Positions 55,080 to 59,518 of a stretch of DNA of 64,000 nucleotides are shown here, in pieces (position 1 is the stretch's first letter; each line of letters starts with the position of its first letter). The stretch is from an uncultured Tolumonas sp. (lineage in GTDB: Bacteria > Pseudomonadota > Gammaproteobacteria > Enterobacterales > Aeromonadaceae), in the NCBI RefSeq assembly GCF_963678185.1, contig NZ_OY782757.1, positions 2,259,501 to 2,323,500 of the forward strand, given 5' to 3'. A model generated the notes under the pieces. The model was not told where the DNA came from. It ran no database searches and saw only the letters and a list, made by a program, of their open reading frames with translations. The position numbers and the translations under genes were made by a program.

Positions 55080-55751
55080 TCAGCGGCCCATTTCCTGTTT
55101 CAGCTTCGCCAAAGCATCATCGACATCGCTGTGCTGCAGTGCTTTCACGCGTTGTTCTAAATCATTGCCATTATGTTGTGTGGCCAGTGAACTTGCGGCA
55201 CTGGCGCGCGCTTCCTGCTTTTCCACCTGTGCTTCGAGCTTATCAAAATCAGCCACCAGCGATTGACCACCGATCCCACTGATCGCAGTAGCTGTTTTTT
55301 CCTGTGCCGCGGCCAAGTGGCTACGTGCTTCCAGCAATTCGATGCGGTTTTGCATCTCGGTATGCTGAGTTTTCAGCTCATTGATGCGGCTTTCCAGCTC
55401 CCGCACCGCAGGTTCATATTGTGCGATCTGGTCTGACTGCTGCTGGAATGTGGTTGTAAGTTGCTGTTTACGGGTCAGACATTCGCGCGCCAGCCCCTCA
55501 TCACCACCACTGATGGCTTGGCGAGCTAAACCATCCCAGCGAGCCACCTCCTGCTCGGTTTTATCCTTACCGGAACGCATCAACTCATATTCAGCTCGTA
55601 CATCCAGTAATGCCGATTCCGCACGCTGGATCTGCTCTTCCAGCTCACGCACGATCTGGCGGGCATCACGCCCCAGATCCGCTGCCGCATCCAGTGCATC
55701 ATTTGCCAGCCCTTTGATGGTTCGGGATAATTTTTCAAAAATACCTGACAT
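55080..55751 (-). CDS. PspA/IM30 family protein (paralogue of pspA)
   Basis: A 223 aa mostly helical coiled-coil protein of the PspA/IM30/Vipp1 family. It begins MSGIFEKLSRTIKGLANDALDAAADLG and is rich in Glu, Gln and Lys with heptads. It differs from the PspA of the psp operon at 58.8 kb in the N-terminal amphipathic segment and in lacking the PspA-type tail. It lies 70 bp downstream of a TPR membrane gene on the same strand, a pairing that suggests one unit for membrane maintenance. The role is inferred from family. Confidence 0.87.
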   Translation of the reverse strand: MSGIFEKLSRTIKGLANDALDAAADLGRDARQIVRELEEQIQRAESALLDVRAEYELMRSGKDKTEQEVARWDGLARQAISGGDEGLARECLTRKQQLTTTFQQQSDQIAQYEPAVRELESRINELKTQHTEMQNRIELLEARSHLAAAQEKTATAISGIGGQSLVADFDKLEAQVEKQEARASAASSLATQHNGNDLEQRVKALQHSDVDDALAKLKQEMGR

Positions 55752-55821: not shown

Positions 55822-56970
55822 TCATGACCAGGAATCATCATTACCACCGTCAAACGACGATGAATCATCGTCCCAGCCAGCACTGTTATCATCATTACTA
55901 CCATCAAAATCCGGTAAAGCATTCCGCTCATTAGCTGACTCTTCACGGACAACCTCATCACGATAAACTACCGTTTCATGCTGACGATTCCCGGCCAGCA
56001 TTTCACCTAACACGACGCCAGCAACAACACCGCCCACACCGCCCACACCGCCCAGCATGCCGCTGCCTGATGAGGTATTGTTATTGATGATCACGGGCTG
56101 CTGCGTTTGTGGTTGCGGATCATGCCAACCCCCTTGTTGTGGTGGCTGCATCACCGGCTCAAATGCTGGCGCACTCACCGGTGCCGGAAATTCACCACTG
56201 CGGGCAGCCTGCTGTAAACGTGTCGTTTCCTCCTGCAAATGGCGCAGTTGCTCGTCGGATAACGGCATGCCGTCTTTACAATGAGCAATGGCTTGCATCA
56301 GCGCCTCTCGGTGAGTAGCTAAAGCGTTATTAATGGGTTGTTTCTGCACAGCAGAATAACTGGCCGCCCGACACTCCAGCTCGCTATCACGCACCGTTTC
56401 GGCTTGTTGTAATAACAACGCCAGCTGTTCTTGCGCTTGCTCTGCCAACCGGCGTTGCTGTTCTTTGGCCCGTTGGGCATCAGCCCGGTTCATCCACCAG
56501 TAAATCACCAGCAACACACCGCCTAACAGCAATAACACCACCGCAAAATAGGAAATCATCGATTTGCCACCACTTTGTTGGTGCTCACTTTTAGTGGGAT
56601 GGATCGCTGAGGAGGAAGTTGTACGCGTATTCGATTGCAGAAAAGCCTGCCGTTGTAAGGCCGCTTTTTCCGCATTATAGATCTCTTGGAATAGCTGCGG
56701 TTTTTTCGCGAAATGCAGTGCAGGATCAAGCTGTTGTGCTTTCGTCAATTCAGCCAATGCTTCCTGATGACGCTTTTCTTTGGCTAATACCTGCCCTAAC
56801 TCATAGTGCGCCATCGCACTGTTGGGTTTGTCTTGCAGGGTTTGTTGCAGCAATTGCTCAGCAAGAACAAAATTTCCGGCATGAACAGCATCTGAAACTT
56901 CTTTTGGTGATGGCACAGCCCATGCGGGTGCAGTCAGAACCAACAGCAACCACAGAATCAATCGTTTCAT
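55822..56970 (-). CDS. TPR-containing membrane protein of unknown function
   Basis: A 382 aa protein. It has a signal peptide (LILWLLLVLTAPAWA), two TPR-like repeats about residues 30-100 (AHYELGQVLAKEKRHQEALAEL), a TM helix near 143-163 (ISYFAVVLLLLGGVLLVIYWW), a helical Glu/Gln-rich region, a Gly-rich stretch (GGVGGVGGVVAGVVLGEML) and an acidic low-complexity tail of Asp/Ser/Gly. No enzyme domain is seen. The ATG at 56970 fits the GAGG upstream; the one at 56979 is too close. It is followed by a PspA paralogue, probably cotranscribed. Confidence 0.75.
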   Translation of the reverse strand: MKRLILWLLLVLTAPAWAVPSPKEVSDAVHAGNFVLAEQLLQQTLQDKPNSAMAHYELGQVLAKEKRHQEALAELTKAQQLDPALHFAKKPQLFQEIYNAEKAALQRQAFLQSNTRTTSSSAIHPTKSEHQQSGGKSMISYFAVVLLLLGGVLLVIYWWMNRADAQRAKEQQRRLAEQAQEQLALLLQQAETVRDSELECRAASYSAVQKQPINNALATHREALMQAIAHCKDGMPLSDEQLRHLQEETTRLQQAARSGEFPAPVSAPAFEPVMQPPQQGGWHDPQPQTQQPVIINNNTSSGSGMLGGVGGVGGVVAGVVLGEMLAGNRQHETVVYRDEVVREESANERNALPDFDGSNDDNSAGWDDDSSSFDGGNDDSWS

Positions 56971-57147
56971 GATATTCATTCCTCTTTGTTATCTGCCACG
57001 GATGATCCGTTGTCTGATAACAAAAGAGCAACATATTTTATGTTACCGAATATTCCATCGATTTTACGGGTAAAAAATCACGATGCCCTTCAGACAAAAA
57101 TGAGCGGGCCATGCTGCCTATACGGCAGATAAAAGAGGGGTAAATCG

Positions 57148-57433
57148 TAGAAAAACGAAGGGGCGACATCATGTCACCCCTCTACAGGCATCGGTGCCTA
57201 AACCGAAGAATTACGTGGAGCACAAATTTTCCGTTGTACACTGCGCAGGCATCCTTGCAGGCATCATCGCCTTCCATGGGGTCACATTTCACGACCGGCT
57301 TCCTGCATAACCGCTGTTCCATCACCGGTTATCACCCATTCCCTGTGGTGTCCTTTTAACCGCATCCGGCGGTTCTTCCCGTGTCTCATCCCTAAGTGAT
57401 GATTCATCCTGAGCCATCACATACATCCTGTAT
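57148..57433 (-). ncRNA. CsrB/CsrC-type regulatory RNA (CsrA sponge)
   Basis: The minus strand from about 57433 to 57148 (286 nt) has twelve GGA motifs, several in hairpin loops: ATAC-AGGAT-GTAT at the 5' end; GTGATG/CATCAC (57420/57396) around CAGGATG; AACCGC-CGGAT-GCGGTT (57374-57358); CACC/GGTG around AGGGA; ATAACCG/CGGTTAT (57332/57307) around TGGA; GCA-AGGA-TGC. It ends in a 10 bp terminator stem (57180-57158) followed by TTCGTTTTT. This is the hallmark of CsrB/CsrC/RsmZ-type RNAs, which sequester the translation regulator CsrA. The 5' end is estimated from a -10-like TAGTAT at 57444-57439. No sizeable open frame explains the conserved structure. Not experimentally shown. Confidence 0.85.
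57150..57180 (-). terminator. Intrinsic terminator of the CsrB-type RNA
   Basis: On the minus strand AGGGGTGACA, a TGA loop and TGTCGCCCCT make a 10 bp stem with one G-T pair, followed by TCGTTTTTC. Confidence 0.85.
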
Positions 57434-57632
57434 GGTTAATACTAGTGTGCAATTCGAAATAATGTGGTTACGTTTTAAACAATAAATGGATGAGAACTGA
57501 TTTTAATAACGATAGATCTATGGAATATCAATGTGATATGTGAATTTTTAACGATTGAAATCACCACAGAAACCGTCTTGGCGTACAGCAACTATGGCAT
57601 ATATCCTACACGCCGCTTAGCTTAAAATGACA
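57434..57632. other. AT-rich region upstream of the CsrB-type RNA, downstream of pspF
   Basis: Low-GC stretch between the predicted RNA start and the pspF stop. It should carry the RNA promoter (a -10-like TAGTAT at 57444-57439, weak -35). I did not find a convincing UvrY/GacA upstream box (TGTAAG-N6-CTTACA) by eye. The other side (56971-57147) likewise holds no gene that I can see. Confidence 0.4.
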
Positions 57633-58679
57633 TCATGGATTGCTGTTATTTTGTTCAACCCGTAAGTGGGGATATTTCCGCAACGCGGCTCGCAGCTGGT
57701 CGTAAGTTAACCCCAGTATTTGTGCAGTGCGTCGCTGATTAAAATGCTGTTGCTGCAGCGCTCGTTGGATCAAACTTTGTTCAAACTGCGCCAGCTGCGC
57801 TTTTAAATCACAAGGCTCTAGCGGTGGCACAGACATCACAACAGCCGGTGCTGCAGCAGGAACCGTTGAGTTATTCAGTGAGGTTGTGCGCCACGGGCTG
57901 ATGAAAGGATCTAACACCATTGCCCCGACGGGTTTGCTCGGATCAGCATGGCGGTAGATGCTGCGCTCCACGACATTTTTCAGTTCACGTACATTACCCG
58001 GCCAATCATGTGCCAGCAGTTGCTGCATTGCTGGCGGCGCAAACCCCGAAAAAAAGTCATACCCCAATTCCAGACACATGCGCAGCGCAAAATGCTCGGC
58101 CAGTTCAGCAATATCCTCTTTACGATAACGCAACGGTGGCAGGTTCAACACATCAAACGCCAGTCGATCTAACAAGTCACCGCGAAAACGCCCTTGCGTA
58201 ACCAGAGCTGGCAGATCTTCATTGCACGCGGCAACCACCCGCACATCAACCTGCAGTGTTTTACTGCCACCGACGCGCTCAAAGCGGCCATATTCAATCA
58301 CGCGTAACAATTTTTCCTGCACCGGTAAACTGGCGGTAGCCAGCTCATCTAAAAACAAGGTGCCACCATCCGCGCGCTCAAAAAGCCCAGCCCGACTGCG
58401 CGTAGCGCCGGTAAAAGCGCCCATTTCATGGCCAAACAGTTCCGATTCCAGCAGATTTTCGCTCATGGCCGCGCAGTTCACCTGCAGATAGGGCTGTTGC
58501 CAGCGCAGTGACAAATAATGCAACCGTTCCGCGATCAGCTCTTTGCCAGTGCCGCGCTCGCCGACCAACAACACTGGCCGATTCAGCAGTGCCACCTGTG
58601 ACGCTTGTTGCAACAGCTGATGCCACAGTTCAGAACTGCCGATCACACGTTGTTTTGGTGTGGTCATTTTATCCATCAT
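57633..58679 (-). CDS. pspF: Psp operon transcriptional activator PspF
   Basis: Sigma54-dependent activator (AAA+ enhancer-binding protein) without an N-terminal receiver domain, 348 aa. Walker A is GERGTGKELIAERL; the GAFTGA loop that contacts sigma54 is in GAFTGATRSRAG; Walker B is GGTLFLDELA. The C-terminal HTH of the Fis type includes RRTAQILGLTYDQLRAALRKYP. It is divergent from pspABC; in E. coli it is held inactive by PspA. Its start region has no strong ribosome site. Confidence 0.94.
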   Translation of the reverse strand: MMDKMTTPKQRVIGSSELWHQLLQQASQVALLNRPVLLVGERGTGKELIAERLHYLSLRWQQPYLQVNCAAMSENLLESELFGHEMGAFTGATRSRAGLFERADGGTLFLDELATASLPVQEKLLRVIEYGRFERVGGSKTLQVDVRVVAACNEDLPALVTQGRFRGDLLDRLAFDVLNLPPLRYRKEDIAELAEHFALRMCLELGYDFFSGFAPPAMQQLLAHDWPGNVRELKNVVERSIYRHADPSKPVGAMVLDPFISPWRTTSLNNSTVPAAAPAVVMSVPPLEPCDLKAQLAQFEQSLIQRALQQQHFNQRRTAQILGLTYDQLRAALRKYPHLRVEQNNSNP

Positions 58680-58843: not shown

Positions 58844-59518
58844 ATGGGTATCTTTTCTCGTTTCAGCGACATCATTAATTCCAACCTGACCGCGTTACTC
58901 GATCGCGCCGAAGACCCGGCCAAAATGGTACGGATGATGATCCAGGAAATGGAAGAAACACTGGTTGAGGTGCGAACCAGCTCTGCGCGTGTCCTTGCTG
59001 ATCGCAAAGAGCAAGAGCGCCGTTTACAACGTCTGCAACACGATGCGCTCGACTGGGAAAACAAAGCCCGTCTGGCATTGAGCAAAGGCCGTGAAGATCT
59101 GGCGCGCGCGGCACTGGCCGAAAAACAGGCGGTGGAAGAAACATTGCAATTGGCAGAACGTGAGCTAAAAGTGATAGAAGAACAACTGACCGTGTTACAT
59201 GAAGAGATCAGTCAGTTGCAGCAAAAGTTGGATGACGCGAAAGCCAAACAACAATCGTTATTAGCGCGGGAAAAAACCAGCCGCGCGCGGATGGATATTC
59301 GCCGCAGCAGCAATCGCGACAAACTGGAAGAAGCATTCCGAAAATTTGATGCTTACGAGCGCAAAATGGATAACTTAGAGGCACAGGTGGAAGCGCAAGA
59401 TCTGGGCCGTAGCCGTACCTTACATGACGAATTTAACGAACTGGCGCGGGACGACAAAGTCGAGTCGGAACTGGAAGCACTGAAAGCCAGCATGACCAAT
59501 CAGAGGAGTGAGTCTTAA
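58844..59518 (+). CDS. pspA: Phage shock protein A
   Basis: Peripheral inner-membrane protein that both represses PspF and stabilises the membrane under proton-motive-force stress, 224 aa. It begins with an N-terminal amphipathic helix (MGIFSRFSDIINSNLTALL) and the PspA motif EDPAKMVRMMIQEMEE, then long coiled coils with DLARAALAEKQ. AGGAG precedes the ATG and a sigma54 promoter lies 35 bp upstream. The stop and the pspB start overlap (TAATG). Confidence 0.96.
   Translation: MGIFSRFSDIINSNLTALLDRAEDPAKMVRMMIQEMEETLVEVRTSSARVLADRKEQERRLQRLQHDALDWENKARLALSKGREDLARAALAEKQAVEETLQLAERELKVIEEQLTVLHEEISQLQQKLDDAKAKQQSLLAREKTSRARMDIRRSSNRDKLEEAFRKFDAYERKMDNLEAQVEAQDLGRSRTLHDEFNELARDDKVESELEALKASMTNQRSES

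Follow-up and report, generated by a model that had tools for sequence, protein, structure and literature searches.

Between pspF and a TPR-like protein gene, Tolumonas DNA contains an interval for which the question arises whether it encodes a CsrB-type RNA, i.e. a sponge for the protein CsrA, and, if so, how this RNA relates to other members of its family. A preliminary description of the window, which here means the whole 64-kb stretch of DNA that was analysed, assigned to this interval a minus-strand RNA of the CsrB/CsrC type at 57148..57433, with 12 GGA motifs, three named stems, an AGGAT loop at the presumed 5' end and a terminator of 10 bp with a T-tract. The features considered in the present analysis are collected in Table 1.

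Table 1. Position of the RNA locus, its promoter elements, hairpins and neighbouring genes within the window.
Feature	Position	Strand	Remarks
Compact CsrB-type sRNA	57151..57433	minus	~283 nt, both ends predicted; 12 GGA
18-base box TGTAGGATATATGCCATA, candidate UvrY site	57593..57610	minus	centre ~168 nt upstream of the predicted start
-10 element TAGTAT	57439..57444	minus	TA(G/C/T)TAT(T/G)A downstream of the box at other copies
5' hairpin CATAC-AGGAT-GTATG	57420..57434	minus	all five pairs in 2/9 genomes (source genome G000 and G005); four pairs in G009 and G010
Hairpin GTGATG/CATCAC, CAGGATG in loop	57396..57420	minus	six pairs changed on both sides; GGA in 7/9 genomes
Hairpin AACCGC-CGGAT-GCGGTT	57358..57374	minus	loop GGA in 9/9 genomes; two pairs changed on both sides
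Hairpin CACC/GGTG, GGGA in loop	57333..57350	minus	two pairs changed on both sides; in-register GGA in 8/9 genomes
Hairpin ATAACCG/CGGTTAT, GTGATGGAACAG between arms	57307..57332	minus	GGA in 9/9 genomes; arms almost invariant
Penultimate hairpin TCGGT/ACCGA	57191..57206	minus	identical in 9/9 genomes
Intrinsic terminator, 11-pair stem then CGTTTTT	57158..57182	minus	similar terminator on the longer paralogue
pspF, upstream neighbour	57633..58679	minus	TIGR02974, 507 bits, above cut-off
TPR-like protein gene, downstream	55822..56979	minus	named TPR by reading and not by a family match above cut-off

Direct reading and counting of the minus strand from 57444 to 57151 recovers the 12 GGA motifs, of which five are AGGA, and the stems GTGATG/CATCAC, AACCGC/GCGGTT and ATAACCG/CGGTTAT are all present on this strand, as is the 5' AGGAT loop. 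The terminator with its T-tract is found as well, with a stem of 11 pairs and not 10, and the proposed extent was nearly right: the 5' end, placed from the -10 element, would fall at ~57434-57432 and the 3' end, placed from the terminator, at ~57151, a slight shift. An intrinsic terminator, as belongs to a CsrB-type RNA, is present according to a scan of three genomes. If 284-nt spans are compared in 10-base steps, the densest GGA span of the minus strand in the window coincides with the RNA locus (12 GGA versus a strand mean of 3.1), and the best plus-strand span within the window holds 10 GGA. Dinucleotide shuffles of the RNA yield 8.5 +/- 2.0 GGA and reach 12 or more in 333 of 5000 cases, so that GGA enrichment was dropped as proof of a sponge RNA; the five AGGA are matched in 52 of 5000 shuffles. 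The number of GGA motifs speaks only weakly for such an RNA, as it is only mildly above composition, which accounts for much of the GGA density. Convincing support for the RNA locus comes from the comparison with relatives and not from the GGA count.

No match in the window is returned by Rfam at its curated cut-offs. Under a relaxed threshold, RF00018 (CsrB) matches the minus strand over the whole model with 28 bits and an E-value of 7.7e-6 for the 741 bases searched, and with an E-value of 9.5e-6 in the whole genome. The gathering score of 71 bits is not reached, and for this reason the window RNA is classed as CsrB-type on the grounds of homology and not as an RF00018 hit. The accession of the CsrC family is presumably RF00084. 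Over the whole source genome, RF00018 finds two places, the window RNA and a longer CsrB with 69.3 bits, and among 14 control genomes it has a match in E. coli only. It detects the window-type copy in three of nine carrier genomes (22-28 bits, with stricter filters), never above the cut-off. The reciprocal search employs R1, a covariance model built from the nine window-type orthologues only, which gives 52 matches in 61 genomes, namely the nine orthologues and 43 others. Forty-two of the latter overlap same-strand RF00018 hits, although the overlap in G002 is only 24 bases, and the single match without such an overlap (G020:C70) scores 23.7 bits. The similarity of sequence and structure to the CsrB family is significant by these measures (E 7.7e-6; 42/43 in the reciprocal search), and the assignment of the window RNA to the CsrB type by homology is supported. 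The covariance-model match foreseen in the preliminary description thus exists on the expected strand and at the right place, at a score below the curated one. Six other relaxed Rfam matches (CRISPR-DR4, mir-994, DapZ, Bacillaceae-1, SpR20, fluoride) are far below their cut-offs (E of at least 0.35) and were rejected; that of DapZ overlaps the terminator.

Full-length window-type RNAs are found by R1 in 9 of 11 Tolumonas genomes, the remaining two assemblies being 87% (G006) and 70% (G008) complete. A DNA similarity search of 41 genomes places the RNA in 10, all Tolumonas, of which G006 has only 65 bases of the RNA, where a contig ends. For the alignment of the nine orthologues, RNAalifold proposes 66 pairs, 12 of which covary in the sense that both sides are changed and the pair is kept in at least one sequence, and 10 of these 12 lie in three hairpins with GGA in the loop (57420-57396, 57374-57358 and 57350-57333). 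For the hairpin at 57307..57332, the near-invariance of the arms means that covariation gives no test of pairing. Nine of the 12 GGA recur within 3 columns in at least eight of the nine genomes, and the window RNA folds moderately better than its shuffles (z -2.2; 3/200 as good). Conserved GGA motifs in hairpin loops, a mark of CsrB-type RNAs, are therefore present, with 12 GGA and covarying loops, the count alone being weak against shuffles. In comparison to four distant species, the 5' part is 54% identical and the 3' 184 nt are 82% identical. Within the 5' part, identity is 75% in GGA columns versus 48% in the rest (86/10000 random placements as good); the 3' part shows no excess conservation of GGA against the same four species (83% versus 82%; 5100/10000), and the excess over the whole RNA is not significant (2055/10000) because the entire 3' part is conserved. 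The anticipated conservation of GGA loops in relatives accordingly holds above background in the 5' part, where hairpins covary, and not as an excess in the 3' part or the RNA as a whole.

A simple promoter scan recognises no minus-strand consensus promoter at the RNA, so that no good -35 is present. Upstream of both CsrB copies of the source genome, at a distance of 165-166 bases from the same -10, stands the sequence TGTAGGATATTTGCCATA, from which the window copy deviates at one position. When at most one mismatch is allowed, this box has 21 sites in 12 of 53 genomes searched, the 12 comprising 10 of the 11 Tolumonas genomes and two of another Aeromonadaceae genus (g5), and the reversed pattern has none. 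Nineteen of the 21 sites precede an RNA that is matched by RF00018 or R1; the other two both belong to G003, where one is followed by nine GGA before the contig ends and the other contig ends at the -10. A -10-like element stands 157-167 nt after the box in 20 of the 21 sites, and 165-167 nt after it in 19. Among the window-type loci, eight of nine have the box at its place, and the contigs of G003 break there. In this genome, a transposase-like frame, named by reading only, is located directly upstream of the RNA's -10 on contig C89 (L008 1-735), and the box is found at the low end of a separate contig, C77; either an insertion has separated the box from the promoter, or the assembly is broken at this point.

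The UvrY target at E. coli csrB is an 18-base inverted repeat with its centre at -183/-182, and TGTGAGACATTGCCGATA is given as the UvrY site of csrC (PMC4682653). Of the 18 positions of this csrC site, 12 are the same in the Tolumonas box. A graded series of boxes is seen upstream of CsrB in other genomes, from TGTAAGAGATCTCTTACT (G015) via TGTAAGAGATCGGCCATT (G012) and TGTGAGACATTTGCCATA (G017, G036) to that of Tolumonas, and the related boxes of some other genera grade towards the classical palindrome. For ten loci of genus g4 (L015-L024), no 18-mer between -230 and -110 of the Rfam start beats the reversed control; at another locus of this genus (L027, in G042), the box matches at 14 of 18 positions versus 10 for the reversed control. 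The source genome encodes one CsrA (89.6 bits), BarA (1260.6 bits) and UvrY (400.1 bits), all above curated cut-offs. A stop counted within the UvrY match was dismissed, since the frame is open across 226 codons. With the upstream box present and both BarA and UvrY encoded, the locus is a candidate for BarA/UvrY activation, in which UvrY binding is predicted from sequence.

The Rfam-matched part of the longer CsrB is located at G000:C1:2323923-2324278, 423 bases past the window end and ~7 kb from the window RNA. Its score lies just below the cut-off of 71 bits, and its counterparts reach 71.3-81.2 bits in nine of the ten other Tolumonas genomes, G004 missing the cut-off at 70.1. The whole unit spans ~452 nt from the -10 and is probably the main CsrB of the organism; the window RNA is not its sole CsrB. 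Both copies have in common the box, the box-to-promoter spacing (165 versus 166), the -10, a similar terminator and the clade of their 3' ends; the longer one differs in its greater length, its repeated CAGGATG hairpins, its 18 AGGAT and its 24 GGA versus 12. They are 32% identical over 478 aligned columns. A FastTree phylogeny of the last ~200 nt (41 tips, midpoint root) splits the Tolumonas sequences (17, both kinds together) from the 24 sequences of other genera with a support of 1.0. A long branch leads to the single clade of the nine window-type copies (support 1.0), and the eight longer copies have no clade of their own under the midpoint root. Since Tolumonas copies of both kinds group apart from other genera, the duplication looks Tolumonas-specific in this sample. 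Elsewhere, two tandem CsrB-type RNAs ~500 nt apart, each with a box, occur in another genus of the family (G020:C38:11604-12564), and overlapping RF00018 hits at G025:C1:595028-595758 as well as five serial hits at G033:C1:4533806-4536939 suggest that csrB was duplicated repeatedly in further families of this order.

Between the source genome and G004/G007, the identity of the window copy is 55% for the 5' part and 80-81% for the last 185 nt, and that of the longer copy is 67-68% and 87-90% for the corresponding parts; judged by these identities, the window copy evolves faster than the longer copy in both halves. Such a rate, the long branch, the halved number of GGA, the score under the Rfam cut-off and a folding z of -2.2 versus -8.2 for a 341-nt part of the longer copy are what a decaying CsrB duplicate might look like, that is, a homologue which has lost useful CsrA sponging and is being eliminated. 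This is improbable, as full length is kept in 9 of 11 genomes, the -10, the terminator and the 3' part are conserved, the box is in place apart from the contig break in G003, and GGA columns and hairpin pairing are constrained even in the fast-changing 5' part. Decay is thus conceivable, yet it conflicts with the constraint seen on hairpins, GGA, box and terminator.

The conservation of the 3' half, which also holds invariant blocks without GGA such as CTTCGGTTTAGGC, bears on a different alternative, namely a CsrB-derived RNA with a second or different role exerted through this half (mRNA pairing, or a decay or processing signal) and with CsrA binding as a secondary property. This alternative overlaps with the reading as a CsrA sponge. 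It is unlikely, given that the 3' part of the longer partner is also more conserved than its 5' part; being common to both copies, the 3' conservation may reflect a shared stability or termination module. The 3' segment of E. coli CsrB carries RNase E/CsrD decay features (PMC5027483). In the source genome, CsrD is not found above its cut-off, the best NF008281 match covering positions 219-631 of 633 with 174.9 bits (cut-off 663), although a divergent homologue is conceivable. For this reason, decay by the enteric route should not be taken for granted, and CsrD-dependent decay is not supported as the cause of the conserved 3' half.

Within the same half, a 51-base block (57337-57287, minus) shows codon-like substitutions in one frame per strand, as detected among 18 block-frames tested. 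The frame on the sRNA strand has the core VMQEA and is open throughout the nine genomes, and its synonymous differences amount to 0.36 versus 0.19 in column shuffles (19/400 as good); the opposite-strand frame gives 0.51 versus 0.23 (0/400), and since column shuffling loses the hairpin constraint, this control is imperfect for both. Five of nine genomes have, in addition, a second open frame, 47 codons long. Taken together, these features would fit a short protein gene, either alone or within a dual-function RNA. Against this stands the lack of any frame with a common start and end across the nine genomes: among the five close genomes, four end the block frame after REM, and elsewhere it ends at different stops, indels shift frames outside the block, and the 47-codon frame is absent or shortened in G002, G003, G004 and G007. 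The block also belongs to a hairpin region, in which two GGA are invariant. The codon-like pattern raises the probability of a short protein from minute to very small, and it lowers that of a CsrA sponge by a trifle from an already high level.

Directly upstream of the RNA and on the same strand, pspF is kept in eight of nine genomes, the ninth (G003) having contig breaks. A broken pspF in G002, suspected from a stop count, was dismissed, the frame being open across 339 codons. A scan of three genomes recognises no terminator in the pspF-RNA interval, which makes read-through from pspF conceivable. The place beside the psp genes, which had been singled out as worth noting, is a feature within Tolumonas: of the 25 other family genomes with a strong pspF match, none has a CsrB hit within 39 kb of that match on the same contig (10 with pspF and CsrB on one contig, 15 without a CsrB hit on the pspF contig). 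Among the titles and abstract openings searched in the open-access literature, no paper on csrB near pspF was found, and the open-access literature searched contains none on csrB together with Tolumonas. Two further genes of this kind are seen nearby, pspA at 58844-59518 (289.6 bits) and, beside the TPR-like gene, a second PspA-like protein at 55080-55751 minus (TIGR02977, 77.8 bits, cut-off 242.95). As the TPR-like gene lies on the same strand and starts ~170 nt past the terminator in the source genome, a cis-acting leader or attenuator of the downstream gene can be envisaged. It is extremely unlikely, since the terminator is strong and the downstream gene differs between species, being TPR-like in five of nine genomes and YecH-like (by reading) in four, while the RNA is kept throughout.

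The CsrB/CsrC-type identity put forward at the outset is thus borne out by the RF00018 match, the reciprocal R1 search, the tree, the common box and spacing, the covarying GGA hairpins and the encoded CsrA, BarA and UvrY; these are direct observations, as are the sequence itself and its conservation. They make it very probable that the window RNA is a CsrA sponge activated by BarA/UvrY and a compact, faster-changing, Tolumonas-specific paralogue of CsrB. The locus would be transcribed leftward and independently into a non-coding sRNA of the CsrB/RsmB type with a length of ~283 nt. BarA would phosphorylate UvrY, which would then bind the 18-base box and activate the promoter. The RNA is predicted to fold into short hairpins with GGA in their loops and to bind several CsrA dimers, and the mRNAs held by CsrA would thereby be freed. 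In this scheme, the window RNA would be the compact and faster-changing member of a Tolumonas CsrB pair, with its longer partner ~7 kb away. Several points count against the sponge reading: the 28 bits versus 71, the detection by RF00018 in three of nine carrier genomes, a GGA number little above composition, half the paralogue's GGA, a 3' conservation that GGA does not explain, the 51-base codon-like block, the lack of a CsrD above cut-off, and a box unseen in the stretch inspected at 10 of 11 g4 loci. A more elaborate version, which we regard as doubtful, is a subfunctionalised Tolumonas CsrB supplied by pspF read-through in addition to UvrY, whereby membrane stress might be linked to CsrA activity and the 3' module might have a decay, target or short-peptide function of its own.

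The window RNA adds a probable global regulator acting after transcription, at a place where gene finders would report nothing, and the locus illustrates how far a CsrB may shrink and diverge with its promoter box retained. The two copies, with 12 and 24 GGA and the same box, constitute a natural pair for asking how many sites a CsrA sponge needs. In addition, the 18-base box of Tolumonas is a nearly invariant, candidate UvrY-type site that can be used in genome scans.

With CsrB and CsrC of E. coli, the window RNA shares GGA hairpins, an intrinsic terminator and a far-upstream UvrY box, which is centred at -183/-182 in csrB (PMC4682653) and, as a candidate, at about -168 here. It differs from them in being shorter, in having fewer GGA, in scoring below the RF00018 gathering threshold, and in residing in a genome without CsrD above the cut-off. 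It is already known that CsrB can occur in multiple copies, lie in nearby pairs and undergo duplication, and what is particular to Tolumonas is a compact, diverged copy that the curated Rfam cut-off misses. Multiple copies and duplication are also described for Pseudoalteromonas (PMC9927453, PMC11882849). Shewanella oneidensis, like Tolumonas, has two nearby copies with a gene between them, CsrB1 and CsrB2, which are UvrY-dependent in Shewanella; the copies are predicted at 420 and 421 bp, whereas those of Tolumonas measure ~283 and ~450 nt and are strongly diverged (PMC3171408 for Shewanella). The csrB copies of vibrios resemble the Tolumonas pair in arising by duplication and relocation; they are described as mostly older paralogues (PMC6262261), whereas the Tolumonas pair is genus-specific in our sample.
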